Origin: Tribonema minus
Taxonomy: Eukaryota; Sar; Xanthophyceae; Tribonematales; Tribonemataceae
DNA: 64,000 nt
Direction of reading: 5' to 3'
NCBI GenBank assembly: GCA_017506865.1
Contig: JAFCMP010000075.1
Location: 186,001 to 250,000 of the forward strand
In this document: piece after piece, positions 2,485 through 48,600 of the stretch
How the letters are laid out: every line of letters begins with the position of its first letter
Position numbering within the stretch: position 1 is the stretch's first letter
Program-made: the position numbers and the translations under genes
The notes under the pieces: generated by a model
The model's input: only the letters and a program-made list of their open reading frames with translations
Databases searched by the model: none
Told to the model about the DNA's origin: nothing

Positions 2485-10326
<7,842 letters not shown>

Positions 10327-12119
10327 TCGCGCTTTGCGCATTTAACCACTGTATGCCGCTGCATACACACGGTGGCAGCGTCATCATTGTACCAGCGCAC
10401 AGTGCACTAGCCTTAACCCGCTATGCGACAGCAGACAGAGCCAGTTGCCAAGTGTCACAGGCATGTGTGCGCGCGTGCTCGGCAATGGTCCAGCAGCTCT
10501 GCGCCAAATGGGGACAACCCGAACGCATCAGGGCGGACGGTCGCAACCACCGTGCATGCGGCGGACGATCGCGAGCGTGCTTGTCTGCACAGCAGCGCGC
10601 TACCGGCTGCGCACACAGAGTCGCGCATTGCGCAGAAGCTCCCAACACTGCAACACGCTCAATAGCGGTGTTGGTGTCGGAACCTCGGACCAGATGGTGA
10701 GCACGGTGTGCAACTTCAACTTCAAGGACTGGACTGGTCTTGTCGAGGTTTGTCTGGCATCTGTCTTGCACATGACACCACATCGGCGTAGCGGGCTCAC
10801 GTTAAGATTGTTACGTGTGTGTCTCCTCTTCCCCACCACATGGCTACGCGCTGTCATCGAGCAGATGCAAATGCCCTTTGAGAGTCCTATTGCAGTGGCT
10901 ACCTTGATGTGCTTGACAATAGAAACACGTTTTTGAATTCACTTGTGTGCTCGCTGTACACCCCCCGCGGTGCCTTTGTAAACGCCTGCTGTTGATTGCC
11001 ATTCAGCAAGGTTATTGGCGCACTGCTGGCTCTGTGACAAGTCATTACTGTTCGGAGATCTATGTACAGGTTCCATGTTGCACATCGCTCTGCAGCACGT
11101 AATGGGTACCCCAAGCATTCCACAGGGCGCGCCAATGTTGATCTCTGTAGAAAATGCCATGACAGAGTCCGCCACTGACACAACAGACATGGCGTGTGCC
11201 GCACACAGGGCGCGCCAATGTTGACCTCTGTAGGAAATGCGATGAGAGTCCGCCACTGACACGACAGTAATGGCATGTGCCGCACTTTGCAGCATCATGA
11301 GATTGATTGGGCAGCTGTGAATGCTTCGTTGCCCACGCTTTAAACCCAGGGCAGAGAGCGCTCATGCCTGGTATACCAGTTGAGGGCAGATTTCCCACCG
11401 AAAGTACAGCTTCACCTTGTAATCCAACCTGCTCCTGTGTACCTTGTTTTCAGAGTTTTTGTCTTGCATGCTTTTCCTGATTATGAAGTTCTGCTCTCGA
11501 GACTCAAGATGCGGAGGGCTTTTGAAAGCTGTTCCTGTGGCACTGCGGCATTTCATGTGCTTCTGAGTAGACCAGCTGTGCTCGATCAGATCACGACTGC
11601 TGCCCCCTCGGAGCGCGCGACTCACTCTGACTATGAGATAACACGCAACTGGCCGTCTCAATTGCGCCTGCCCCTACAATGCGCGTCACTCACAACACTA
11701 TCGACAAGCTTACACCGCAAGCACTGCGGCGCTGACTCAAGTCCACGCCTCATATACTTCTTGCTGCTGGGAGTGCCCAAGCACATTACCTGCAGCCTGG
11801 ACGCTGTGCTCGCCATAATAAGCGCGACGCTCTCGCGAGGAAAAGAGCTGCGAGGATGCTTTGCTGGCAGTTACTGAGGGTAACGGCTTTCTCCAAGAAG
11901 AAGTTCAAGAGTGCAATGACAATGACGTGAGTTGCGCGAGCTGATTGTGCCGCAAGGCCAAGGGTTGCAGCCCTTGCCCTCTAGAGGACACGAGACCAGC
12001 AGCTACAATGGTTGGTTTCATAAGTGAGCGCAGGCCACAGCAGTGCATCATCACACATTCTCTTCACTCACTCCCCCTTCAGTCCAAGGCTTCTGTGCAG
12101 TTCCTGTTCCGGCACCACC
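10327..12119. other. Intergenic, SGNH gene to Cys-rich gene
   Basis: This 1.8-kb stretch has several open frames, the longest 165 codons at 11380-11877, but none shows a recognisable family, exon-like GC content or splice support. It holds one 83-bp tandem duplication (11121-11286) and a CTTCAA-type hexamer near 10711. Confidence 0.45.
11121..11286. repeat. Tandem duplication, two units of about 83 bp
   Basis: The segment starting cacagggcgcgccaatgttg at 11121 recurs at 11204 with a few substitutions and a small indel, and runs to about 11286. Each copy includes a palindromic GGCGCGCC. It has no link to a coding exon. Confidence 0.85.
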
Positions 12120-31259: not shown

Positions 31260-34200
31260 TCACACTGCCGCTTCCGGCATTCGCCATATGAATATGCCAC
31301 CCTCCTCGCCCACGGACACGATGGACGAGCCGTCGGGCGAGACGCGCACGCTGTTGACCTTGCCGCTGTGGCCGTGCCCCACCGCCATTGCGATGCCGTC
31401 GTCGTAATGCCACACCTGCAGAACGCACCAGAGAACAAGGTGTCGCGGTTGAGGTGGTGGTGGCGGTGAGGACGCATGTTTGTGTTGTATCTGCATCAAA
31501 TCAGCATGGCGGTCACCACCGGGTACGTTGAGCATCGCCACTGGAACAATGGGCTGCTGAGGCAGCACCTGGACCACACCATTGCCACTGCTGACAAAGC
31601 AGAAGTTGCTGTTCCCATCAATGCTCTGTGTGTTGATGCTCTATCAGCTGCCGTCGTTTGTCGCGTGCTGCCTCCCTCCGCCGCCTCAAACTACAACACA
31701 AGCTCCAAAGCTCAAGTTGAACTTCAAGCGAGCATGCCATGAACTGCTGCATGCTGTGCAACTCACCGTCACCCAAGCTCCAACGTGAACATCAGAACTA
31801 TAACTCAAATCAAGCGGGCATGAATCCTCGTCCTGACCTTGATGAGGCTGTCGTCGCCGCCGCTGACGAAGCAGCAGCCATTCCTGTCGACGTCCAGCGC
31901 ATTCATGCCCTCCTCGCCGCCATCAATCTCTCGAATGGCGCTGCCGTCATAGGCATCCCAGTAGGTGATCTTGTGGTTGCTGCCGCACGTCAGGTACTGG
32001 CTCTCGTCGGGGTGATACGCGACGGACTTGAAGACGGTGGGCTCGAACATGGCCTGCGAGCGCACGCCGCGCTCCAGGTCCCACACGATGCACGACCCGT
32101 CCTCGCTGCTCGTCACGCAGTGCCTGTTGTCGCCGCTGACCTGGGGGAGGGGGGGGGGGGGGGTATATGTATGCGTGAGAGAGAGAGCTGGTGTGAGGCA
32201 GAGAGAAAGTGAGTCCTAGAGCGAGTCAGAGTCGGAGTTGTGGCGCTGCTCGCGTGGCGAGTAACCCTAACACAACGACACAGCTGAGACCGAGCCTCAT
32301 TGGCACTGGCCATCTGCTCAGAGCTCACGAGCGCTGCCCAGAGGTCATCACGCCAGCCCTCAGCCCTCATAGGGCTAGTCTTTGTAGGGTTAGAGCCCAG
32401 CGTTCATCACCACCAGCGGCGCGCGGGCGGCGGTGGCGGCGCGGAGGCAGCAGCAGCGCTCAAGCACTCAAAACAGCCTGAACATGCGCGCACGCTGGCT
32501 GCTCCCCCGCGCGCACCTTGATGCACGTGACGGGCCCGCGGTGCTCCTTCCAGCTGATGGCCATGGCCTGGTGAGAGGGGGTGACGCTCCACACGCGCAC
32601 GCGTCCGTCCGCGCCGCCGCTGATGACGCGCCACGGCGGCCGCGCGTCGTCGTCGTGCGCGAGGGCGAGCGCCGTCACGCCCTCCGCGTGCGCGTCCGTG
32701 ATGACAAACTTGAGCTTGCCGGACTCCGGGTAGAAGGCGCGCAGCTTGCCGTCGGACCAGCCGCTCACGATGGTGGACCCCGTGTGCGTGATGCCCACGC
32801 AGGAGCACTCCAGGTTGGGGACCTGCGACAGGGGAGGGGGCGCGGAGAGTTCAAGTTGAGGTTGCATTTGGGGGGGCAGGTGCTGAGTGGCGTCGCTGTG
32901 ATGGGGTGTGTGGTGCGAGGCGCAGCGTTCAGATGTGCACACGGCATGCACATCAAGCGTGCGACTTGCCATCGTGTACCGACGCTCCGGAATAGACGCC
33001 CTGCCCCCAACGCACCTAGGTGCTGTCGGATCAGACTGCTGTAAGCATGTCAAGCCTAGCGCAGGCACAAGCGCATAAACTGGAGTAGTAGGCATTGTGG
33101 TGATGCTCAGGTAGGTAGGTATGTAGGTATCGGTAAGGGCTCCTCAAGTGGTCACCTGTATGCGCAGCAGCTCCTGGCGCTGCTTGGCATTGTGGTGATG
33201 CTCAGGCACGTGGGTATGTAGGTAGCGATAAGGGCAACACCTGTATGCGCAGCAGCTCCTGGTGCTGCTTTGTGTTCCACACGCGAATGTCCTGGATGGA
33301 GCCGCAATGATGCTCAGGCACGTGGGTATGTGGGTAGCGACAAGGTCCTCACCTGTATGCGCAGCAGCTCCTGGCGCTGCTTTGCGTTCCACACGCGGAT
33401 GTCCTGAACGGAGCACGTGACAAACAGGCTGGGGCAGCCCTTGGGGAAGACGACGTCATTGACACGGCCATGGTGGCACGTGCCGCGCAGCTCCACCTCC
33501 ATGTTCATGCTCACCCAGTACCTGCATAGGCGCACGAAGAGGGAGTTTGAAACCAGAATAAATGTGTACCATTAAGTACACAAGCCGTGCAGCTCCACCT
33601 CCATGTTCATGCTCACCCAGTACCTGCAGGAGGGGTATGCATTGATGATCAGAATACATACATGCATACCATGAAGTACATAAGCCGTGGTGGCAGCTGC
33701 AGCACTGCTCCATGTCCGTGTTCATGCGCATTTATTGCATGTAGGTGAGCGCAGAAGGGGGGTTGGGCCGAGCTGCCCAGTGCTCCAAAACTATGCATAG
33801 TCTAAAGTGCATTGAAGCGCCAGTGAACCCATCTCGGCATGGCCTGCCCTGAGCACACGCCAGCACCCATCTGTACCAAATATACTCATAGGCATGCAGG
33901 CATGGCTCGCGGACAGTGCAAGCACGCCACGAAAGCGCTGTAACAGTCACCACCGAGGTATGTATGTACTTCACAAGCAGCAGCAGCTCTCCCTTACGCA
34001 TGCACAAGCCCGCACCCGCACCTGTTGCTGAGCTCCGTCCCCGCAAAGAACCCCTTGCCGTCAGGGCACAGCGCGACGCTCGTGCACCCCCCCAGCAGCT
34101 CGCACGCGCGCTCGCGCACGCGGTTCAGCGCGGGGTTCACAAACGCCACCGTCCCGTCGCCCGCTGCGACGAGGCAGTTGGTGGCGCCCGTGGCGGCGTT

Positions 34201-36587
34201 GAGGACGCACGCGAGCGCGCGCACGCCGCGCCCGAACTTCTCGCGCGAGCACTCGCTGAGCGTCGGGCGCACCGTGTCGGGCTCGTTGCAGGACTGTATG
34301 CCGTCGCGGTCAATGGTGAAGCGCAGGAGGTCGCCCGTGCGCGTGCCGCAGACGGCGTGGGAGTCGTCCGCGGCGATGGCCACGCACGAGATGATGCGCC
34401 GCACCGTGCCCATCTTGGCGTCCACCGCGTGGATCTGCGGCCGATGTGTGCGCGTGCGTGCATGTGCGAGTGTGTGCGCCAGAAATGTGCGTGAGACGAC
34501 GCAAAGCATGTGTGCTTGGAGTGCACCAGAGAAGTGCTAGAAGGAAGCATTGAAGTTCCAACTTGAAGTTGATTAGGCTGGCTGAGAGAAGTGAAGTAAT
34601 GTAGCACGACCATTATCGAGCTGCAGAAGGCGTAGTCGTCTCGAGACCAGATAAATTGTGAGACAGCTGGCGGGCGTATGCAAGCCACAGAAGATGATAT
34701 CGATGTTGAAGCATCACTGGCCGTCTGTCATTGCGAAACTCACAATTGGGCTTGCTACAATGTGTGGCTCTGCCCAACAGCAGGTGAGTGCTTGGAAGGG
34801 CAACTTGTGGGCGTTTCACATTGGTGTCACTGCTTATTACCGACATATTTGGTCACCTATGACTGCTGCCTGAGCAGTGCCAGCATCAACTTGATATTCC
34901 ACAAGCCATGCTATCATTGTTGGCAGCGACGCCGCAGAGCAAGCATGTTGAACAGAATCATGGACCACGTTGAGTACCTCAGTTTGGCTGGGGGGATTGA
35001 CCTGACAGAGTGTCAGTGTTCATGGTCACGTGCTTTGGGTCTTTTCAAATAAGCATAACATGGAAGGATGAAGCCACGACAGCTCCATTGACTGCTGTGT
35101 GCTTTTGGAGCAGCTGTGCAAGCAGCATGCAATGCCTGGAGTTGATGCATTAACAAGAATGAATGAAAACACTTCAGCAAGAATCCTGGTGGACGTCGAC
35201 TCAGCGCAGATCCAATGCCCGGCTTACAAGGTCGGTGGCAATGTAAGTAGACAGTTGTGGCCGCTGCGTCCACTGTCATGCACCACTGTCTCCATTTGGT
35301 AAGCCCCAGCATGTGTGCATACCTCAGCTGTTGAGCGGTGTGACGGTGCGAGAATCTGTCCCGTAATGACAAATGTCACGTCCACCCTGCAGCTTGCAAG
35401 TCATGACAGCATTGCTGTCGCCGAGCTGCAGGCTTGCAACCAATGTGCAGCTGGCCATACAGCATCCGTCTCTGCCGCCGCTGCCTTGAATATTGACGCT
35501 GTGCATGACGCGCCTGCACGATGCGCCAGTAACTCTCCCAACGCACCTCAAGCTCAAGTATGTAGCACAAACGCCAGCGGTTTTTTTTTGCGCAGTTGGT
35601 GCTCACTCACCTTGGGTATGCGCACGTCCACCTGCCACACGCGCAGATTGTAGTTCCCCGCCGTCACAAGTCTGTCGTTGCGCCTGTTGAGCCACTTGAT
35701 GGCCAGCGCGCTGTCCTGAGCAGCTGGCGCGCCACAGATTGCCCGCCCCGTGTCTATGTCCCACACCACCAGCGTATTGTCATCCTGTCCTCCGAGGGTC
35801 GCCAGGTAGCGCCCGTCGCAGCTGCGCGGGGCAAGGCGGAGAGGGTGGAGCTTGACGGCATGATGTGCGTGCAGTCAAGGTCTTTAGTAGAGCTTGCTTG
35901 TGAACGAGTTGAGACGTCTATGTGCATAGGTATCTTCCGGGCAAGCTCAACAGTGTCCTTGCTCGAGAAGGTCAGCACCATGTGCAGCCAAAGCACATCA
36001 AGTTCGGAACCGGCTGTAGTGCAAACCCGCTGCAACCTCAACGATCACACCTGGTATTCGTTCTTTACCTGAAATCCAGGCACTGCACTTTGCCCAAGTG
36101 TTGCCTGAACCGGGACAGCAGAACCCCTGCGCCGTGAGGGTCGTGGCTATCGCAATTCCGCACTGCTCTGGACATGTCCCATATGCACACATCTGCCTTC
36201 ACTCCTGGATGGTTGACCTGCCCTGTAGCAAGCCTCTTGCCATCTGGGCTCATGGCCACACAGCAGATGTCGTTGGTATGTCCCTCCAGAAATGCTGTTT
36301 TGCCCCCGGTCAGGCTGCGAACTATCATCATCTTGCCCAGAGGGTAGACGGTGTAGTTGCCGCATGGTGTTACCTTTAGCCCGCCCAGCACATGTCCTGC
36401 GCATGACCAAGCAATCAAACACGTGTAGGCATGCGCATCAGGTGGCAGTTGGCGCAGCAATTTTCCTGCCAGTACCAAAAGCGCACAACTGATGATGCTA
36501 TGGCTGGTGTCAGAAGGAGAGGTGTTCACCTGAAAAACCGATGCAAGCCTCCAAGTTGAGCTCCGGAGCATCCTCTGCCAGAGCCAT
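31260..36587 (-). CDS. CFAP52: CFAP52 (WDR16), WD40 protein of flagellar doublet microtubules
   Basis: Eight exons on the minus strand give 647 residues: 36530-36587, 36069-36396, 35611-35821, 34022-34434, 33353-33521, 32517-32822, 31838-32140 and 31260-31415. Every junction agrees in phase. CFAP52 is a WD40 twin-propeller protein inside the axonemal doublet. Family blocks run in order: the start LNLEACIGFSGHVLGGLKV, LEGHTNDICCVAMSPDGKR, ATGQVNHPGVKADVCIWD, ATLGGQDDNTLVVWD, CGAPAAQ, FVTCSVQDIRVWN, VSGWSDGKLRAFYPESGKL, ISGGADGRVRVW, TSSEDGSCIVWDL, TCGSNHKITYWDAYDGSAIRE and FVSGGDDSLIKVW. Length is close to the animal protein (about 620). Introns on both sides of exon 5 hold tandem copies of that exon's ends. 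It diverges from the CFAP97-like gene. Confidence 0.93.
33148..33302 (-). repeat. Tandem copies of the 3' end of CFAP52 exon 5 with donor
   Basis: The exon 5 end and its donor (real donor at 33353/33352) recur downstream in the intron at about 33241-33302 and 33156-33190, separated by related spacers carrying GATGCTCAGGCACGTGGGTA. Both copies keep ATACAG|GTG. The longer copy encodes DIRVWNTKQHQELLRIQ, nearly the same as the exon's own end, and is preceded by an AG. Confidence 0.9.
33584..33732 (-). repeat. Tandem copies of the 5' start of CFAP52 exon 5 with acceptor
   Basis: The acceptor and first part of exon 5 (real exon start 33521) recur about 102 bp upstream in the transcript, with the copied exon start at 33623. 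This copy keeps tgcag|GTACTGGGTGAG. A third, degenerate copy follows at about 33682-33732. The spacers, containing GTACAT/GTACAC motifs, are repeated as well. Confidence 0.85.
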
Positions 36588-36682
36588 GGTGCTTCACCGC
36601 CACCCCTCACCCCTGCTTACAACCTTGCTACTAGTGCACTCAACCGTTTTCATGAAACTGCCGCAGACTTCAACTTTTGCAC
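36588..36682. promoter_or_regulatory. Bidirectional promoter region of two flagellar genes
   Basis: Only 95 bp lie between the start codons of CFAP52 (minus) and the CFAP97-like gene (plus). The gap contains a quasi-palindrome GTTTTCATGAAAC at 36646-36658 and a CTTCAA hexamer at 36668. A shared flagellar promoter is inferred. The palindrome resembles, but does not match, an RFX X-box. Confidence 0.45.
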
Positions 36683-38963
36683 ATGCCAATCAATCACGCT
36701 TGCTGCACTATTGAGGACGCCATGAATGTAAACGCGATGTACAAGGGCGAGCGCGTGATAGCCGCGCAGCAGGAGGTCGACGACATGACGGTACACCTCA
36801 AGCGCCTCTTGTGCGTCAGCAAAACAGTGGACACAAGCAGGCCATATGCATGGGACCTGCCACACCTTCGCACTCGGCCAAAGAAGAAGCAGGTGACACA
36901 GAGGGACTTTTATTGCTGAATTCCATGCTGCGTACGTCGTTTCCAGTGCCCTCAGATGTCGGTAGCACAAACAATGTAGGACTCATTTTTGGCAGTCGCT
37001 TGCCAGATGGTCATTCAACATGTGATGGTAGTCATAGCTGGAGCATGTCTTGGTTGCAGCATTAGCGACCCTGGCATAGTGCGCAAGATATTCATACCTA
37101 GTATGCATGCTGCTCATTTGAGAGACTGGCGGGGTCAGTGCAGCTCCGTGAAACTCTAGTGCCACCATCTGTAGCTCGCTGACACCTGTCGATCTCTCTC
37201 TCGAGTCACGGCGCTCATGCTGATCAGGGGGTACTCTTGTTGTAAAATCATCAAAGTACATGAATCGCACGTCAGAGCCACCACCGTCTGTCACTCGCAA
37301 CACAGGCGATGTCACGTCTATATACGAGCTGCATGCCCAGATTCTGAACGGTGCCACCCTAGCATCAGCACAATCTCATCAGCAACCTCATGACAGCGCG
37401 CAGCACTTGCCGCTCACACACTCAAAACAGCATCTCACCGACCCCCGTGCTCGCAGCTGGAGTCGGACCGGCAGCGCGAAATCGGCATCGAGAACACGCA
37501 GCTCATGCGGCGCCTGGCGCGCGCCATGAAGCAGGACGCCTACGACCCCGCCAAGGCCTCCAAGTACCGCGACATGGCGCAGGCGTCGTGCGAGGCGAGC
37601 CGCCGCAAGGCGCGCCACGCGCTGTCGGCGCAGAACGCCAAGCTCGCGCGCGCTCTGGTGAGCCAGAAGCCTTTTTACAGCACGGACGCGATGCGGGAGG
37701 AGGAGAGCGCGCGGCAGGCGGTGCTGACGTCCATGTCGCGCGCGCAGCGGCGGAGGAAGAACGTGCGCGCCATCGACGGCCTGTGTCGCTCGCAGGTGAG
37801 TGCGCGGAGCACTGTGTTGGCGGGGTGTTGAGCGGAGCTGTGTGTAGCGCGGCGCTGCTGAGAATCGCTTGCAAAGGCGGTCTTGAGAAAGAACGTGCGT
37901 GCCATCGACGGGCTGTACCGCTCGCAGGTGCGTGCGCGGAGCGCTGTGTTGGGGGGGGAGGGGGGGGGTTGAGCGGTGCTGTTTGTGGTGCGATGCTCTT
38001 GAGAGTCATTTTCAGTGGTGGTTAGAGGTTGGTCGAGAGGCATGTCGTGGGTGCGACAGCCGACAGCGTATGAAGTTGCTGTTCGAAGAACGGTGTTAAT
38101 GTTGCCTGTGAGAGCCGTTGATGTACGCATAGCAACATGCAGCAGCACTGTAGCTTGCGTACTGTCAAATGACACTTATCGCGATGACATTGAGGTACTT
38201 GCCAACGTGACCTTTGCACCACCACCAGCTCCTCATGTTACACAATCAACGCAGCCTTGGCCAGCCACACAACGGCACATGTCAATGTCATTACTGCACT
38301 CACTCAAATCCCGGCATGAGCGATCACTTACACACACATGTTGTTGACAAGCCGTGAGAGCCTTGCATTCTCCAGCTATTCTCTTGTACGTTCAGCCGCA
38401 TATCCAAATGCATCCATGCGCAACGCTGCTAAGCGCAGGTGCAGCTGCTGGGGCTTGAACCAGGCAAGGCATCCTCCGCCGTGGAGCGTCACCCGCAGCA
38501 GTTGCCGCTGGACTACGGTGAAAGCCTCACGCGCGAGCTTGAAGGTGGCATCCTGTTCAGCGGCGGCGGCGGCGTGCAGGCGGACTTCAAGCTGCGCACC
38601 GCGCGCCAGATGCGCGAGGAAGTGGCCAAGGCGCAGAGCCGCAGCCAGTCGGGGGGTGCTAGTGGGGGTTCGCAGCAGGGCAGCAGCGCTGTGCGGCGGC
38701 ACAGTACAGGGGGAGGTACAGGGGGGAGTACAGGGGGGAGTACACGTAACAGCAGGCGGGCGGGGATGCCGGGCCCGTGCGTGATGCACATATCGCACGT
38801 GGCGGGCGAAAGCGCGCGCGGCAATCTGGTGTTGTGCCACACACTCAGGGATCCATGCAGGGGTATCGATGGGGGGGTGGAGGGGGGTGGGGGCAGTAGT
38901 AGTGCAGTATCGCAGGTTGCTGGGGGGGCTTCGGTCGCAGCGCGGTCGACTGCTACTGCGTGA
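36683..38963 (+). CDS. CFAP97-domain (KIAA1430/Hemingway-like) protein
   Basis: Three exons, 36683-36892, 37457-37795 and 38439-38963, give 357 residues. The N-terminal half has the charged helical layout of the CFAP97 family: PYAWDLPHLRTRPKKKQ, then an ESDRQREIGIENTQLMRRL coiled segment matching the family's basic/acidic 'I-E-x-EN-x-x-L-x-x-[KR][IL]' pattern, then NAKLARAL. The family is linked to axonemes and motile cilia. The rest (from about residue 240) is Gly/Ser-rich and low complexity with no domain. The third exon could start at 38439 (GTG CAG CTG) or 38445, a tandem acceptor differing by two residues. Its head-to-head position with CFAP52 independently supports a flagellar role. The family call is moderate because the domain is short. 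Confidence 0.65.
37880..37953 (+). repeat. Copy of the 3' end of CFAP97-like exon 2 with donor
   Basis: AAGAACGTGCGTGCCATCGA and what follows, through CGCTCGCAG|GTGCGTGCGCGGAG, repeats the real exon end and donor (37795/37796) 131 bp further on, inside the intron. Use of the copied donor would run through a TGA in the duplicated spacer. Confidence 0.85.
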
Positions 38964-40062
38964 CGAGGTGCGGTTGAAGATGTTGCATCCATAGGGTATG
39001 TATGCACCCAGCCAGTACGTATACACATGTACTTTACAAAGTATTTATGAATACTTACTGCAGTGAAAATAATGTACAAACGATAGCTGTTGCTTTGCGT
39101 GCTGCAACAGAGTTCACTGCTAGCTTGATCTTGTCGCTGAGTGGTGGAAGCATGCGCCTGTGAAATGTGAAGGCCTTGGAGGGCGGTGTGTTGATGCACT
39201 GTGCATGTGTGGCAACAAGATTATGACGACAGCTGGCACGCGACATTTGCAGCAGTGTGCGCATGACATTTGAGGCGAAAGCCCACGACTATGCACGCCT
39301 ATGGCCGCGGGTTTGGGATTGGAATGTGAAACTAGGGGCAGCTTTCTGTCAGATCAACAGCACAGGTCTATGACTCGTGCCTGCAGCCTGTACAGCCAAG
39401 TGCGCCACGAGGCATGATTGCCGGAAGCCGTTGGGCTCATTCATTCAGCAAATGCAGAATATACCCCAGAATATACCATGATGAATGATGACTCGTTGAA
39501 CAAAGAGTCACAAGCATGACTCTCAATCAATGACACACCAACAACATTGCAAGCACAAGTAGGATAATCTGAGATCTCTGTCTCCATCCGTAGAACCCTG
39601 TCCCTTTGCTGGAGGCCGGTCACAAAGGTACACAAGAGAGGGGCTGATAACTTCACCCCAAAGCGCAAGATGCCGAGCGCCACTCTGACTCCAAACACGG
39701 CCCAAATAAACCCACCACTACTAAACGGAACAGGACGAACAAATACCTGCCATACCACCCCCTGGCATCAATGTAGTGCCGAGTACGACTGCCGGTGCAC
39801 TCACTGAGTGTAGCTTGGACCTGATGTGTGGCAATGCAGGTCAACAAGCGTTCCGGCAGCTCTGCTCGGGGTTTTCGGGAGGGGCGTCGGCGCAGCGCAC
39901 TGCCTTTGAGGATCCTAGTGCAGCGCGGTGATGCAGCAGCTTTGGCTGAAAGTGCGGCGTGCTGAGGGGTGCTGCCGTCGCTCTAATACGATACATAGGG
40001 CGAGCCTGCTTATCTAACGATATAGCCCTTCGGGTTGAACTTGAAGTTCCTCCGCCAATTCT
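38964..40062. other. Convergent intergenic region
   Basis: This 1.1-kb region separates the ends of the CFAP97-like gene (plus) and the protease gene (minus). A 105-codon minus frame at 39441-39758 is hydrophobic in part but resembles no family I know. A GAACTTGAAGTTC hexamer palindrome lies at about 40037. Confidence 0.45.
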
Positions 40063-43000
40063 TCAGGGGTCCTTGATGACGGATGTAACGGCAAAGTTCG
40101 CCAGCCCGCAGTGGTTCTGCCCCTTGACGACCCTGTAGTACCCCCCTTCCCCCCACCAGCTCCCCCAGCTATTCTTCACCACCCAGTACTCCACCCCGTC
40201 TTGCTCCCCAAACCCTACCACGAGGACAGCGTGGTCTAATGTGGTTGGTTCGCATGGAAGCGTGGTGTCGATGGCTCCTGCCTTGCAGTACTCCGTTCCT
40301 GAGACGTACTCTGGACAGCCGGTGATGCCGTGCCTGGTGCAAGTAGAGCAGGAGCATGCGTAGGCGGGTTAGCGTGCAGCGGATAATGATAATGATGCTC
40401 AAATGTGGTGGCACGCGATGACGTGCTCAGAGCACAATTGTCAAGTAGGTGAGCATGGAGTACACAGGACGAATGCTCTGTGTGGTGGCGCGGCGGAGGA
40501 TGCTGGCTGCGGTGGCATATGGCGATGATGCTCAAATGTGGTGGCACACAATTATGGTGTTCATTGTGTTGGTACACACGACCTTGGCGCTCAATGCAGT
40601 AGCACATGGTGATGGTGATGCTTCAATGTGGTGGCACGTATGATGATGCTGGTTGTGGGCACACAGTGATGCTCAACGCGGCACGTGGCGATGTTACTCA
40701 ACGTGACACACAGCAATGATGCTCAGCGCGACACACGGTGATCATGCTAAACGGTAATCAGTTTGTGATACTTGGGTGTCATAAGGCGCATAATACATAG
40801 GAGCTGGCCATGGATGTGTATGAACCACAGCAGACACGTGCAACATGAGTAATCGAGGTGAACCTGAGGGCAAGAAATCACTTGAAGTAACTGACTCAAA
40901 GCAGCTGACTCGCACCAAGCATCACAGCAGCTATGCTGCTGTGCAGTGCAATATGTCACTTGTTCGATGAGGGTAACTGGCACAGCCCGTGAATCACTAC
41001 CAGGCATTTCATTCAGCTCACTTGTAGTACTCCATGCCGACTGCGTTGAGCACGATTGAGATGGGCCCATTCTTGACCATGGCCGTGGCCAGTAGGTCCT
41101 CGTACTGTGCGCCCAAGGCTACCATCTGCCATCCCCCAATGTGCGCAACGGCGCTGTCTTTGAGGCTCTCATTGACCTGAGAGCGGGTATGGTTACAGGT
41201 GGCAGGCACACGCACAGAGGTGGCAGCAGTTGCTGAGCATATATTTATGAAACAGCCTGCAGCAGCTGAAGAGGGCAGGATGATCATCAACAGCATCAGC
41301 AGCGGGTACATGTAAAAGTATGCACGGGGACAGGCTATACACAAGTCCACATACAGAGAGGACGCGCCAGGCATCATGCATGTATGCGCCACCCCCCGCA
41401 CCTGATCCGTGTCGCAGGTGGGCGTCCCCTTCGGAGCGCTGCCGCACGTCCCCCATGCGCATACATTTTTGTACGGATAGTCCTCCTCATACACAAGGCC
41501 CCCAGTGCTGGCGACGTACTGCATGGCTGCATAAGGCAGGCCGCCGTTGCAGCCCTCTGCGGCGTTTCGCTTCTGATCGCACGCCACGAGCTGCTGCTTG
41601 GACAGCTCCACGACTTGGCCGGTGGCCAGAAACCACTTGCCCTCAATGTCGCCCGCCGTGCTGAACGACCAGCAGCTGCCGCAGTACCCCTGGCTGTTGA
41701 GCGAATGCGCGAGCGGTGAGGTGTGACCTTGAATTGAAGCGGGCGTTTGATTAGGAGCGTCACGTGTTGAAGTGACCTGTTACAGTAACCTGCCCGTTCT
41801 GAAGTGACCTGCCCATCTTGCATGTTTACTGCAGTGACCAACCAGCATACCCCTGGCTGCGGAGCGCGTATCCAAAGCAATGTGAGTTTTGAAAATGACA
41901 CAAGCGGAAGTGAACCGCTTGACCGCAATGCCGCCCGCCGTGCTGAACAACCAGCACCAGCCGCAATACCTCCAGCTGTGTCATCATTAATGAACTTTGA
42001 CCAAAACTCATGTTCAACAAAACCCTTGTGCGGAGCACTGACCTGCTGACGGGCGTCTCGTACTTGGCGCGCCAGTCAAACTCCGTCGGCATGTTGGCGA
42101 GCGTGTAGTTGCCCAGCTCCGGGTACATGCCGCACGCCGCGCAGTCCTCCTCCGTGATCCACCCGAACTGGCTCTTGCTGATGTTCGGCCCCTTGACCTT
42201 GCTGCTGATCCCCTTGCCCCCCCCCTTTAACCCCCCCTTGAGCGCTGCCTCCTGGCCCCCCACCGCAGGCCGGGGCTCCCCCTCCACCACCCCCGCGGGC
42301 AGAGACCCCAGCAGCGTCTGGTAATTCGCAAAGGCAGCGCTCATGCGGCGCCCCGCGCGCTCCTCCGCCGTCATGTCGGCGTACTCATTGACCTCGAAGA
42401 GCGCGAGCGGGTTGGCGTCGTTGAGCGCGTCGATGAGCGCCAAGTTCAACTTGAAGGCGGCAAAGCGACGCTCCGCCTCGCCGTCGGACGCGTACGCGCG
42501 CGCGTGCTGCGTCCTGTAGCTGTCGAAGGCCATGCGCTTGGCATCCTCGCTCAGGTCCGCAAGCCGCCGCGCCTTGCCCGCGCGCGCCGCCTGGTAGAGC
42601 GCGGTGGGCAGCGGCGGCAGCGCTCGGACGGAGGGAGGAGAGTCACCACTGGCGGCGGCGATGCCGTTGGCGGCCAGCAGAGAGGAGACGCCCTGGCGCA
42701 GCGCCAGCACGCCTACCACGGCGCTGATGATGACGCTCAGCGTGGCGGCCTGCTGCCAGGTAGGGCGGCGGCGGAGCCTGCGCCCAAAGTTCTCGCCGGA
42801 TATCTGCGGAAGCGAGGATGGGGGGGGGGGGGGGCGTTGAGGGGGCTCAATGTGCCTGGGTGCAAGGCAAGACTTGCGCACCAGGAGGTAGTCTTGATGG
42901 TGCTTGCGCGGCCCCTTGATCAATGCTCAACATGCATAAACACCTTGCTGAGAGTGCTACATAGCAGAAGTGCACATTGATGAGTGCAATATCTCTCCAC

Positions 43001-43398
43001 TCAACATCATGTGCGGTGTCCTTCTGTAGTAGCCACATGCTGTACTATGCAAAGCTTGCCTTGGCGCGCGTCATCAAGGATGCGAAATCTCGTTGCCGTT
43101 GGCTAGTGTGATCTCAACTAGCTTGTGACGTTCCTGGACCAAACAAGCAGCTCAATGTAGTGGTGATGTCATTGAACATCATCCATATCTTACATTTCGT
43201 GCAGTAGTGGATCGCCTAGCGAAGCGAGATATCCGTTGCAGATCATTCAGTGTGGGCTCCGCATTAGATCAACAGACTTATACGGACAGCGAGCTCTCTC
43301 ACCTCTACGTACTCGTGGTCCTCCGAGACATCGGGCAGGCGATCATAGCGGAGCCGAGACGTGCTGTTGTTGGGCAGCAAAGACCCGTAGCCTGACAT
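40063..43398 (-). CDS. Membrane-anchored papain-family (C1A) cysteine protease
   Basis: Five exons on the minus strand give 524 residues: 43303-43398, 42043-42803, 41402-41693, 41022-41176 and 40063-40333. An N-terminal cytosolic tail is followed by one membrane helix (about residues 51-68, [17 protein letters not shown]), so it is probably a type II membrane or vacuole-delivered protein. An I29-type propeptide follows ([28 protein letters not shown]), then mature papain motifs: [18 protein letters not shown] (catalytic Cys), [19 protein letters not shown] (catalytic His) and [18 protein letters not shown] (catalytic Asn). All three catalytic residues and the oxyanion Gln are present, so it should be active. 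A Gly/Lys-rich linker separates propeptide and catalytic domain. Intron 2 carries copies of the start of exon 3, and intron 4 carries a degenerate minisatellite. Confidence 0.92.
40380..40745. repeat. Degenerate minisatellite in protease intron 4
   Basis: A loosely repeated unit of roughly 25-45 bp with the core GTGGCACACxxTGATGATGCTCAA recurs about ten times. Later copies differ from early ones, suggesting an old tandem array. Confidence 0.7.
41840..41977 (-). repeat. Copies of the 5' start of protease exon 3 with acceptor
   Basis: The exon 3 start (real acceptor 41694, exon start 41693) is repeated twice upstream in the transcript. Near 41841-41870 the copy keeps ccgcag|CCAGGGGTA. At about 41935-41977 the copy covers the catalytic-site region with several substitutions and has lost the acceptor. 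Confidence 0.85.
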
Positions 43399-43856
43399 GA
43401 CCTGCTGCACCCGTTCGCTGTGGGTTGCTGTCAATACTTGTCTCGCCCGAGCAAGAGTCACAGGCGCAGCTAGGTAGTATCACAGTGATTGATTATCGAG
43501 CAGCACTGAATGCCTACGTTCGCTTCCTTCGCTTGCCGTCTTCTCCCATGCGTTTCAAACTTCAACTGTGAAGTACCTCAGTTCGGTGACTACCCCGACC
43601 AGGACTACTGCCGGTGCGAGGGTAGATATAGTAGTGTCTGGGCTGCTCGCAGAGCTGTGCTGGTACCTGCATCTGACTGTGCTTGTGAGGAAGTGGACGA
43701 GGCTATGCTTCAGCCCACGTGCTGAGCCCCTGGACGCACTACTGTGCGCTTGTTAGGCTGCTCTCGCAGCAGCTCACGTGCCACGGATTTCAAGGAAGGG
43801 AGTCGTGGCTAATCTTCGCTTGCGGCTCCGAGAGCAAGTCTGGTCACGACATCACC
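43399..43856. promoter_or_regulatory. Divergent upstream region, protease / GBF1-like
   Basis: This 458-bp gap lies between the starts of the protease (minus, from 43398) and the ARF-GEF (plus, from 43857). It should contain both promoters. A frame remains open upstream of the GEF start, so a slightly longer GEF N-terminus cannot be excluded. Confidence 0.35.
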
Positions 43857-45603
43857 ATGCAAGGCCTGGGTCACACCATCGGGGCAGTCGGCGTGATCAA
43901 GGGCGAGATACACAACGTGCTCGCGGCGCTGCGCATCAATGCACGATGGGCTACGCGCGCTCGCTTCACCAAGGAGATCCCTTTGCAGGCGGAGTCCCCT
44001 CTCATTCGATCGCTCAGATCGCTGCACACGTACCTGGAAGCAGTGGACGATCTAGGCGATGTGGACGCTGTCCGTTACCTCGAGCCTTTCTTGGCGGTGG
44101 TGGAGTCCCATCACACAACAGGGCCAATGACTGGCGCAGCGCTGTCATCCTTGCACAAGTTCTTGCTGTACGGGTTCATGACTCCAGAGAGCCCTCGGGC
44201 GAGGGAGGGCATCGACCGCATTGCGCGCAGCATCAGCAACTTCCACTTTGAGGAGACAGATCCTGAGAGTGATGAGGTGGTGCTGATGAAGGTGAGCTGC
44301 ACCAAAGGGAGCACAGCGATGATGTGGGTGCCAGCAATCAAGTGGGTTTCAGGCAATCATGTAATGTCTGTCGCCATTGCTGCAGTACACAACCATGCTG
44401 ATGCTGCTACAAATCTTGCGTCAACGCTTGCGCTGCGACACGCGCGCAGACTTGCCATCGCAATGGCTCTCTGTATTGCCCCACCACCTGCATGCCATCA
44501 CTGTGCTTACGCACACTAAGCTCTGCACACCCTGTCCCCTAACCTTACCCCCTCGTGCCCCCCCCCCTTTCCCCTGTCCGCAGCTGCTGGAGCTGAGCGC
44601 GCTGTGCCTGCGCTGCGAGGTGGGGCGTTTGCTGAGCGACGAGCGCTGCTGGGACATCTTCCAGTCCTGCTACGGCATCTCCTCACAGGAGCGCGTGACC
44701 TCGCTCCTCGGCAACACCGCCGGCAACACGATAGCGCACATTGTCCTCATCGTCTTCAGCCGCCCGCGGCCGCCGCCGCAGCTGTCGCCGCGGTCCAAGG
44801 CAAAGGCCGGGAAGCAGAGGGCGGTGAAGGCGGCGGGCAGTCCTGCGGGAGCGGGGCATGGTGAAGGGGCGGGGGTGGAGCATGAGGTCAGTCTGCAGCG
44901 CGGTGATTGCAGCGCGGTGATTGCGGTGCTGGTGTTGCTGTCATCAGCTGGGCAAAGCCGGAAGCGGGTGGTGTTGTAGCTGGACCGCCCATGTTCATGC
45001 CATTGCACACTAAGGTTCGAATCAATTGGGGAACATGTCTGGACGTTTGCAAGCACGCCGCGTTGCTGCTGTTGCCGATGTTATTGCAGCGGCGCGGCCG
45101 TGACTCCAGGCGCTGGTCACTGCTGCGCCTGATGCGCACAGCAAGCAGCAAGTGGTGCGGACGCAGCTACCACCTCATTGCCACTACTTTCCCACTGCTG
45201 CTCTCATGCAGGGGGAGCCAGGCCAGGGGGGGGCGGACTCTGGCGACGAAGGGGACCAGGAAGGAGAGTCACAGGTGCATCACCGGCGGCGGCGGCGGCG
45301 GCGCACACGGGATCAGAGCCCCGCTGGCGAAGGCGGGGAGCAGCAGCTCAATGTTTTGGTGGAGATCATGCGGTTTCTGAGCAGGCTCAGCAACCCGCGC
45401 GAGAACTCGGAGGACACGTGCATCCTGTGCCTGAGCCTCATCAACATTGCGCTGGAGGCAGGCGGGAGCCAGCTGGGGCAGCAGCAGGCGCTGGTGGAGG
45501 TGAGGTTTGCTGTTGCTGGTGCTGCTGTTGCTGCTGCTGCTGCTGGTGCTGGCGCAGGTGATGCTGGTGCTGGTGGTGGTGCTGCTGCTGCTGCTGCTGG
45601 TGG

Positions 45604-45668
<65 letters not shown>

Positions 45669-48600
45669 GTGGTGCTGACGTTAGGGGCACTGATGGTAGG
45701 GGCGGGGCTGCTGCTGTGAGTGCATGCTTGCAGAAGCTGAGCCCAGCACACCATACCGCTGCTGTGCCACTGCGCCTGGTTTTACGCAGTTTCTGCTACA
45801 TAGCGGTCAGCTACCTGATCGGTCTTGATTGCTCGCTGCTGCAGGCAGCACCAAATGCAGCAGCTGGCGCGCTTTGGCGATGCCATTACGCTGCTGAGCC
45901 CTTACAGCGTCGTAACCCTGACTGTCATGCCTACCCCAACAGGTCATGCAGGGCGACCTCTGCAAGCACCTGCTGCACTGCAGCCAGACGGAGGAGCTCA
46001 ACATCCTGAGCCTCACGCTGCGCGTCGTCTTCAACCTCTTCAACTCCATCAAGGACCACCTCAAAGTTCAACTCGAGGTCTTCATCACCTCCATACACCT
46101 GCGCATACTGGAGGGGGGGGGCGGGGGGGCGCACGCGGGGGGCGGCGGCGGGGGGGGGGGGCAGCCCGGCACCCCCTTTGCGCACCCCCCCGAGCAGCGC
46201 GAGCTCGTCCTGGAGAGCCTTCTGGAGTTCTGCCGCGAGCCCACGCTCATGCTGGACCTGTACATCAACTACGACTGCGACGTGCAGTGCACCAACCTCT
46301 TTGAGACGGTGTGCAACGCGCTGAGCCGCGCCGCGCTGCCGGCGTCCCGCGCCGACGAGCTCAACGCGCTCCACCGCCTCGCGCTCGAGTGCGTGCTGAG
46401 CGTTGTGGAGTCCATGGCCAAGCGCTGCGTGCCCCCCCCCGCCGCGGGCAGAGGGGGGGGGGGCGGGGGGGGCACCACAACCCCCTTCGCGGGGCAGTCC
46501 CCGCCCCCCACGAGTATGTCCCCCCTGCCGGCCCTCTACAAGGGGTTCAACTCGGGGTCCACGCTGTCGTTTGATGAGGGGGGGGAGGGGGCCACGGCTT
46601 CGGAGCTGGAGTCGGACTCGGAGGCTGATGGGGGGCAACAGGTGAGGGTGTGTGTGTGTGGGTGGGCGGTGGGGGGTCGGTCGGTTGCTGCTGGTGTTGC
46701 GGCATCAGCGTCATACGTTCATGCGATGATGGCAACGATGGCATGACGCAATTTACTGATGTACACGTGCAAGTGCTATGGCTGAAAAGCCGTGGCAGGT
46801 GGGAAGGGGGGATGGGGGGCAATGACGAGTTAGTAAGGAAACTGTAACTTCAAGTCCCAGTTGCATCAGCTGGCTGGCAGCACATTAGCAGTCTTCGCCT
46901 GCGGCGGTGACAGTTTGCCCGGTTGTGTCGAGCGATGCAGCACCAACCAACAATAAAGTTTGCAGCTTGTTGTGTTAGCCAAACACCAAGGCCACAGCGA
47001 CGCCTCACGCTTAAGGACGTCGCTGCACAGGCTCGCCCCAGCCTGCTTGCCAGCAAACCGGCTGCGCCGTCACGCAGGCAGCGCACCTGCCGATTCTATC
47101 TCTAAACCCCATCGTGAACGTGTGCGCACCCGCTGCTGCTAACTATTTCCAGCTCCATTCCTACATAGCACACTGGCTAGAGCAGCTGCACACGCATCGC
47201 ATCTGAATCAAGCCCTGCGCTGCCTACCATCAAACCACCTGCGCTGTTGCGCCACGCCCTGACCCCAACTCCGACTGCACGCGCACGCGGCGTACTGGCT
47301 GGAGCAAGCGTGCGCACAACATTTCTCTCATAAACCTCACCCCTGCCTACCAACAAACAACGCGCGCTGCCGCGCCACGCCCTGACCCTAACCCCAACCC
47401 CAACACCGCGCGCAGGCGGCGTACTGGCTGGAGCAGGCGCGTGCGCACTTCATGTGAACACACTTCACCCCTGCGTGCCACCAAATAGCCTACGTTGCGC
47501 CACGCCCTGACCTCAACCCCGATCCCGACCGCGCGCGCAGGCGGCGTACTGGCTGGAGCAGGCGCGCGCACAACATTTTGCCAATAAACCTCACCCCTGC
47601 TGCGCTTCGCAGCCCGCCCTGACCCCAACTACAAACGCGCGCGCAGGCGGCGTACTGGCTGGAGCAGGCGCGCGCGCACTCCGCCGCGGCGGAGGTCCTG
47701 CTGCAGCGCAAGCGCATGAAGCGGCGCCTCGCCCTCGCCGCGCAGCGCTTCAACACAGACGCCAAGGGCTGGATGGGCTACGCGCAGGAGCTGGGGCTGC
47801 TGCTCACGCCCGCGTCCGCCGCGTCCGTAGCGCGCTTTCTCAAGACGACGCTGGGCCTGGACAAGGCCATGCTCGGGGAGTATCTGAGCAAGGGGCCGCC
47901 GGATCGGTACCCGTTCAACGGGGAGGTGCTGCGGGAGTACGCGCGGCTGTTTGACTTCAGGGATACGGTGAGCGCCGCTGCCGCTGTGGAGCGCTGCTGC
48001 TGCTGCTGCTGCTGCTGGTAGCGTGGCGGTGCTGGCGCTGCGTTACATGTTTTTGCGCTGTTGCACTACGTTATGTTTTGTATGCGTATTTGACACTGAG
48101 TGGTGTTGTGGTCTTACAGCTGCGGAGTAGGCGTGCTCTTAGTGAACTGCAGTACTGCAACCACATTCAACAGCCGGACACTCACTTAGCCTTGACCCTA
48201 CTTAAGACTATGTGCCCTTCTGGGAGTTTAGGCACAATGGTAGGCTTGAACCGACTACTGCGCTGATGCATGACGGTTACGTTCAACACCACTGACATTT
48301 CACCCTTGCTGTTCTCTGCGTCGTCTCGCCTCCGCTGCGTGCGGTTTCACACGTGTAACAGCTGTTTGAAGACGCGCTGCGGCGCTTTCTCAAGGAGTTC
48401 CGGCTGCCTGGCGAAGCTCAGTGCATAGACAGGCTCATGGAGGCCTTTGCGTGCGAGTACTTCCGTCAGTGCAAGGGCCAACACCCGTTCGCGGATGCCG
48501 ACGCCGCCTTTATTCTGGCCTTCAGCATCATCATGCTCAACACGGACCGGCACAACCCTCAAGTGAGCGCAAGTTGTGGTTACGGAGTGCTCTGTGTGGC

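Follow-up and report, generated by a model that had tools for sequence, protein, structure and literature searches.

The introns of the alga Tribonema minus contain what appear to be second copies of the ends of their own exons, splice sites included, and the question raised by the 64,000-nt stretch analysed here (contig JAFCMP010000075.1 of assembly GCA_017506865.1, positions 186,001 to 250,000 of the forward strand; hereafter the window) is how such copies arise and whether they are of any use. We analysed the window within the 158-Mb assembly, which comprises 554 contigs, and observed that sequences spanning exon-intron junctions are repeated in the adjacent intron both in the window and in other parts of the genome. 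The copies are probably the products of ordinary local tandem duplications, in which the exon-proximal copy stays in use while the extra copy decays as intron, and an additional bias towards junctions is suggested.

Junction copies in four genes of the window

Self-blastn of the whole window returned 11 short-range direct-repeat pairs, representing eight independent places, and overlay on the gene models placed five of these eight across an exon-intron junction. An earlier note on this DNA, prepared from the letters alone, had claimed that the boundary is repeated within the adjacent intron in four genes, on both strands and at donors as well as acceptors; this is confirmed at five junctions, namely the donor and the acceptor of CFAP52 (minus strand), the donor of a CFAP97-like gene (plus strand), the acceptor of a protease gene (minus strand) and the acceptor of a GBF1-like gene (plus strand). 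The exon parts of the copies are 62, 40, 43, 63 and 34 nt long, respectively. The repeated unit had been described as an exon segment, splice site and spacer with a period of 85-130 bp, which fits four of the junctions, where the splice site and flanking intron are carried along at spacings of 95-132 bp, but not the protease, whose copy lies 282 bp away and has lost the acceptor. Tandem Repeats Finder picks up one array in the window (33196-33414). The window also holds an intron-only 83-bp tandem duplication (11121-11285, 89% identity), away from any predicted junction.

The CFAP52 exon at 33353-33520 encodes 56 residues that match CFAP52 chains in the PDB from end to end (E 3.7e-17), although with a query trimmed to the predicted junctions the match does not in itself prove the exon ends; these residues are no closer to PDB chain 6u42, which we take to be from Chlamydomonas, than to the other matching chains. 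The match to CFAP97 is weak (E 1.5e-4, under the Pfam cut-off). The protease is of the papain type, with Peptidase_C1 and I29 domains, and the GBF1-like gene has HUS and Sec7 domains, all according to Pfam. Two further intronic copies accompany the CFAP52 donor and four, progressively more decayed, the GBF1-like acceptor; the oldest copies in both arrays are degenerate. The genuine exon ends and their copies are as follows.

33353..33414, minus strand: genuine 3' end of the CFAP52 exon, 62 nt, adjoining the donor GT at 33352-33351 (PDB match and alignment)
33241..33302, minus strand: first CFAP52 copy in the intron, exon end plus donor CAG|GTGTTG, exon part 92% identical
33156..33191, minus strand: second CFAP52 copy in the intron, comprising 36 nt of exon and the donor CAG|GTGACC (self-blastn and alignment)
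33482..33521, minus strand: first 40 nt of the genuine CFAP52 exon, preceded by the acceptor AG at 33523-33522
33584..33623, minus strand: CFAP52 exon start repeated in the intron together with acceptor CTGCAG|GTA, identity 97% across the 40 nt and 82% in the intron part
33688..33745, minus strand: weak, degenerate further copy of the CFAP52 exon start, acceptor lost, placed by eye from the printed strand
37753..37795, plus strand: genuine 3' end of the CFAP97-like exon, 43 nt, adjoining the donor GT at 37796-37797
37885..37927, plus strand: CFAP97-like exon end repeated in the intron together with donor CAG|GTGCGT, the sole other match reported by the genome search
41631..41693, minus strand: genuine start of the protease exon, 63 nt, after the acceptor
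41913..41979, minus strand: protease exon start repeated in the intron at a distance of 282 bp, acceptor not kept, almost no intron part
47647..47680, plus strand: genuine start of the GBF1-like exon, 34 nt, after acceptor GCGCAG|GCG
47541..47574, plus strand: GBF1-like intronic copy 1, acceptor intact (genome search and alignment)
47416..47449, plus strand: GBF1-like intronic copy 2, acceptor intact (genome search and alignment)
47287..47320, plus strand: GBF1-like intronic copy 3, acceptor AG lost and replaced by AC (genome search and alignment)
47169..47200, plus strand: degenerate fourth GBF1-like copy, limits by eye

In the protease only 4 nt past the junction align, and a second aligner begins 5 nt inside the exon. 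Within the GBF1-like array the gene finder predicted 21-nt exons; since gene finders call such copies as exons, annotations of genomes of this kind may be wrong at these places. A long TGC trinucleotide array overlaps a predicted exon of the GBF1-like gene (45508-45677).

Chance controls and spread over the genome

The comparison was carried over to a sample of 282,550 bp in 24 sequences, consisting of the window and its two flanks, place-picked stretches (13 and four more, of which 15 yielded introns) and six kinesin-gene stretches, the last chosen by Pfam matches with several separate exons and not by repeats. One kinesin stretch (L025) supplied no intron for the junction count, and kinesin counts cover five stretches. 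Exons are predictions of a home-made gene finder trained on the sampled sequences themselves. The earlier note had asked for introns to be self-aligned with their flanking exons against controls. On the sample this was done by comparing 80-nt ends of well-scoring exons with their own intron, at a score of at least 44, for 104 introns in 22 sequences. The analyses as a whole left out pairs more than 1-1.5 kb apart, low-complexity pairs, introns below 60 nt and exons that scored less than 12 or measured under 60 nt. For 26 of 208 junctions the exon end has a match in its own intron, whereas at the same score there is no match in non-cognate introns (0/208), in reverse-complemented introns (0/208) or for segments from exon middles (0/85). 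Chance is excluded as the source of this recurrence.

Copies that span the junction are present at 32 of 226 junctions in the sample, 16 donors and 16 acceptors, belonging to 25 of 113 introns; the protease case, included in the chance test, falls outside the spanning class of this count. The claim that a genome-wide process is at work is borne out by copies at 9 of the 100 place-picked junctions (in 5 of 15 stretches) and at 19 of the 58 kinesin junctions (in 4 of 5 stretches), with 4 of 68 in the window and its flanks, and the pattern is widespread but uneven. Copies are spaced 93-533 bp from the genuine sequence (median 169.5), and stretches for which a recognisable second copy is present make up 12% of the sampled intron bases. 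Introns with copies are longer than those without (median 1005 vs 528.5), as growth by duplication would give and as could chance in longer introns.

Repeats bearing splice sites in many introns call to mind introners, which the excerpt of PMC9860276 describes as repeated, dispersed intronic sequences with splice sites, or some other mobile element carrying splice sites. A whole-genome DNA search with three units from the window, in which the best candidates were scored, found matches only within each unit's own local array, so that, unlike introners as described there, the three units are local and match only at their own junction; exon ends, moreover, never recurred in non-cognate introns. 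We reject a mobile element, which is almost certainly not the source of the copies.

Position and decay of the copies

At a score of at least 44, the best copies of upstream exons lie in the donor half of the intron in 12 of 12 cases, and the best copies of downstream exons lie in the acceptor half in 11 of 14. These positions bear on the Rogers model of intron birth, according to which introns are tandem duplicates of AGGT-bearing exon segments. Tandem copies are certainly present, junctions such as CAG|GTG and CAG|GTA resemble protosplice sites, and the protease copy, which has almost no intron part and lies within the donor half of an intron of 349 nt, is compatible with such an origin. However, the model expects the upstream-exon copy at the 3' end of the intron and the downstream-exon copy at its 5' end, the opposite of what most copies display, and most units contain intron sequence. 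Intron gain by tandem duplication (Hellsten et al. 2011, as reviewed in the excerpt of PMC3443670) resembles the present case in being a local tandem duplication that involves splice-site sequence, but the units of the alga, as compared with the mechanism outlined in that excerpt, mostly include intron and extend an existing intron, and their positions are mostly reversed. AGGT duplication is rejected as the rule, the protease copy excepted, and is very improbable as a general account.

Over the 29 best pairs, divergence is 0.107 in the exon part and 0.191 in the intron part, with indels. Mis-joining of reads or haplotypes in the assembly has one candidate in its favour, a 375-bp tandem duplicate at L009:2515-3265 that is 97.6% identical and spans a whole predicted 243-nt exon with flanking intron; it may reflect recent duplication of the whole exon or a doubling in the assembly. 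The best pairs at large, however, differ by 11% in exon and 19% in intron with indels and are therefore not simple assembly doublings, and the pattern is present on several contigs. An assembly artefact is accordingly a highly unlikely explanation of the pattern.

Broken down by codon position of the genuine exon, divergence in the same 29 pairs is 0.090, 0.083 and 0.149 at positions 1, 2 and 3, and a repeat on 28 pairs gave 0.089, 0.081 and 0.145, against 0.195 in the intron part. Positions 1 and 2 thus stand at about half of the intron-part divergence, which fits free drift of the copy beside an exon frozen at these sites, and the extra divergence at position 3 agrees with synonymous substitution in the genuine exon. 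Mismatches in the splice motif of the copies (30/216, or 0.139) fall between the one-lineage and the two-lineage expectation, and the splice dinucleotide is kept by 21 of 25 copies.

The earlier note had spoken of arrays of competing splice sites. Most copies do keep the dinucleotide, and it could be supposed that the copies serve as alternative exon ends or helper splice sites under selection; some exon parts are indeed very well preserved, and gaps in them are few. Yet codon positions 1 and 2 diverge at the neutral rate of a single lineage, and the mismatch of the splice motif is no lower than that of codon positions 1 and 2. Selected alternative exons are rejected, and functional arrays are improbable. 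The copies decay approximately neutrally, carry no sequence sign of use or selection, and look like unselected leftovers.

Are splice junctions favoured sites of duplication?

Duplication clusters in the sample could be classed as spanning a junction or as intron-only in 42 cases, with one further cluster unclassed, and 32 of the 42 are spanning (4/5 in the window and flanks, 9/13 in place-picked stretches and 19/24 in kinesin genes). Uniform placement with matched unit size expects only 12.0-14.2. A simulation in which tandem duplications fall uniformly and decay neutrally, with the exon held under constraint and the same detector applied, covers single events without large deletions or multi-copy arrays and expects 27% spanning as against the 76% observed (P 3e-11; P 7e-5 for the 13/18 of the window and place-picked groups together). 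When kinesin exons were taken from Pfam matches alone, trimmed conservatively and with gene gaps dropped where the Pfam positions are not contiguous, 15 of 24 clusters were spanning where 5.7 are expected (P 4e-5). A generous null was also set by guessing a threefold lifetime bias, which corresponds to a guessed spanning share of 0.43; against it the Pfam-only kinesin count gives P 0.043.

The exon part of the spanning units is short, with a median of 43 nt against 67 nt in a simulation that placed units at donors only (Kolmogorov-Smirnov P 1.7e-4). It measures 20-72 nt in 28 of 32 units and 28-72 nt in 26, and reaches at least 73 nt in 3 of 32 where the same simulation gives 14.7; it does not correlate with spacing (Spearman 0.18, P 0.33). 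That whole GC-rich exons are prone to duplication seems less likely, the exon part being short and not growing with spacing.

These figures could mean that junctions are hot spots, where a process tied to splicing or transcription copies some 100-250 bp around the splice site, including 20-70 nt of exon between the site and the exonic breakpoint, into the intron. Speculatively, the agent might be a stalled polymerase, an R-loop, or spliceosome-bound pre-mRNA that serves as template for repair. The excess of spanning clusters, the narrow exon part uncorrelated with spacing, and donors and acceptors being struck in equal number all speak for such a process, but selection against long exon copies, which are potential pseudo-exons, would limit the exon part as well, and the excess becomes smaller when other annotations or nulls are used. 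Junction-directed duplication is therefore a tentative proposal that we regard as rather doubtful. If it were true, introns would grow outward from exon ends and constantly gain spare splice sites for new introns or mini-exons.

A number of results weigh against our interpretation, several of them by weakening the junction excess. Under the guessed share of 0.43 the place-picked clusters (9/13) give P 0.052, with P 1e-5 for all data. Raw gene models, which include pseudo-exons in copies, yield 39 spanning clusters of 68 where about 30 are expected, and the difference is significant only for the kinesins. In a shift test at exon-score cut-offs of 10, 12, 15 and 20, spanning clusters number 31, 30, 23 and 13 (P 0.01, 0 of 500, 0.002 and 0.15); the kinesin group alone is significant, and the window and place-picked groups are non-significant at every cut-off, although this test allows the distal copy to hit the junction and is in our judgement too lenient a null. 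Detection on intron letters only leaves 14 of 27 spanning (P 4e-4 against 21%, 0.014 against 30% and 0.14 against 40%), which is non-significant against the highest of these shares and for the window and place-picked groups singly. Copies are also uneven, being several times denser in the kinesin genes (L022-L027) than in place-picked stretches. Homology supports only a minority of the exons predicted by the home-made finder, and some predicted junctions are wrong, with two supposed acceptors lacking AG (L007 and L022). Among the copies themselves, three of the 14 from downstream exons, the protease included, occupy the donor half, their introns measuring 349, 356 and 597 nt. Gap events number 16 in 1400 in the exon part and 116 in 3433 in the intron part, so that the exon part falls short of half the intron rate, and the exon part of one kinesin copy is identical at 66 of 66 positions with 76% identity in its intron part; because of these last two observations, conversion or constraint is possible for single copies.

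For a process acting on junctions, as the earlier note had it, the evidence is consequently suggestive only: the share of spanning clusters far exceeds the simulated one, but the other tests are weaker and the excess comes largely from kinesins. A moderate excess of junction-spanning duplications, resting largely on kinesin genes, is likely, and it may stem either from biased mutation or from selective removal of duplications inside exons and of long exon copies.

Other features of the sampled sequences

Composition changes abruptly at junctions in all stretches, third codon positions of predicted exons having 84% G+C as compared with 55% in predicted introns, and predicted acceptors nearly all end in CAG. 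A second long TGC trinucleotide array of the window lies within a predicted exon (5938-6048). Inverted repeats are present at L008:8787-9385 (a 213-bp pair at 81%) and at L014:3965-6641 (a family with arms of about 130 bp at about 70%). Eleven fragments resembling plastid psaA or psaB occur on ten contigs, five of them with stops (for example C168:558775-558942 in L028). These are probably pieces of plastid DNA in the nuclear genome, as judged from their sequences, in which case the organism has or had a plastid. For one psaA fragment, compared over 53 residues, the closest PDB chains are 9ygv, from a giant-kelp photosystem according to the excerpt of PMC13219633, and 9m4f, which rank before chains linked by literature listings to a cryptophyte and a diatom; this short comparison hints at an alga of the red lineage.

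Origin of the copies and comparison with known cases

According to the reading that we prefer, ordinary local tandem duplication with decay of the extra copy, short duplications with spacings mostly of about 90-280 bp would keep arising in the genome of the alga. One falling wholly within an exon would disrupt the protein and presumably be purged in most cases. One that straddles a junction would be tolerated, since exon end and splice site are still provided by the copy next to the exon, and the extra copy, consisting of a piece of exon, a splice site and a piece of intron, would on the gene models become intron and be spliced out; its removal with the intron makes the event nearly neutral. 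The coding frames suggest that the exon-proximal copy is used exclusively. In the pairs examined, coding selection holds the genuine copy, and the extra copy decays under little or no constraint. The net effect would be growth of the intron, together with a spare splice site left to decay. Purging of exonic duplications and slower decay of pairs anchored in an exon would account for some of the predominance of junctions; the excess that remains, and an exon part confined to about 20-70 nt, suggest that junctions are additionally favoured, whether by mutation or by selection.

The nearest known case is the RdRp gene of potato, where, in the excerpt of Ma, Lan and Niu 2016 (PMC4974935), a tandem duplication across an intron-exon boundary, comprising the 3' part of the intron and the 5' part of the next exon with acceptor and signals included, gave rise to a new exon and a new intron, backed by RNA-seq and by comparison with relatives. 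An 83-bp tandem duplication inside an intron is also noted there. As in the potato gene, so far as that excerpt describes it, the duplicated unit of the alga holds exon, splice site and intron. Unlike that single case, the duplications of the alga recur in many genes and affect donors too, and the copies appear from their sequence to be dead intron; their neutral decay argues against splicing as new exon plus new intron as the rule.

Among the matches listed from the open-licence literature, judged by titles and the openings of abstracts, there is no report of a comparable genome-wide pattern. Frequent internal duplications in genes were reportedly described by Gao and Lynch in 2009, to go by the title and a passage citing that work, which may already hold boundary-spanning cases.

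The lengthening of introns and the origin of spare splice sites have mostly been argued from single cases, and here one genome offers many natural replicates. Because 32 of the 226 sampled junctions have datable copies of their own exon end and splice site, the rate at which splice sites are duplicated, the decay of the duplicates and their effect on splicing become measurable, and the same replicates allow a bias of duplication towards junctions to be tested.

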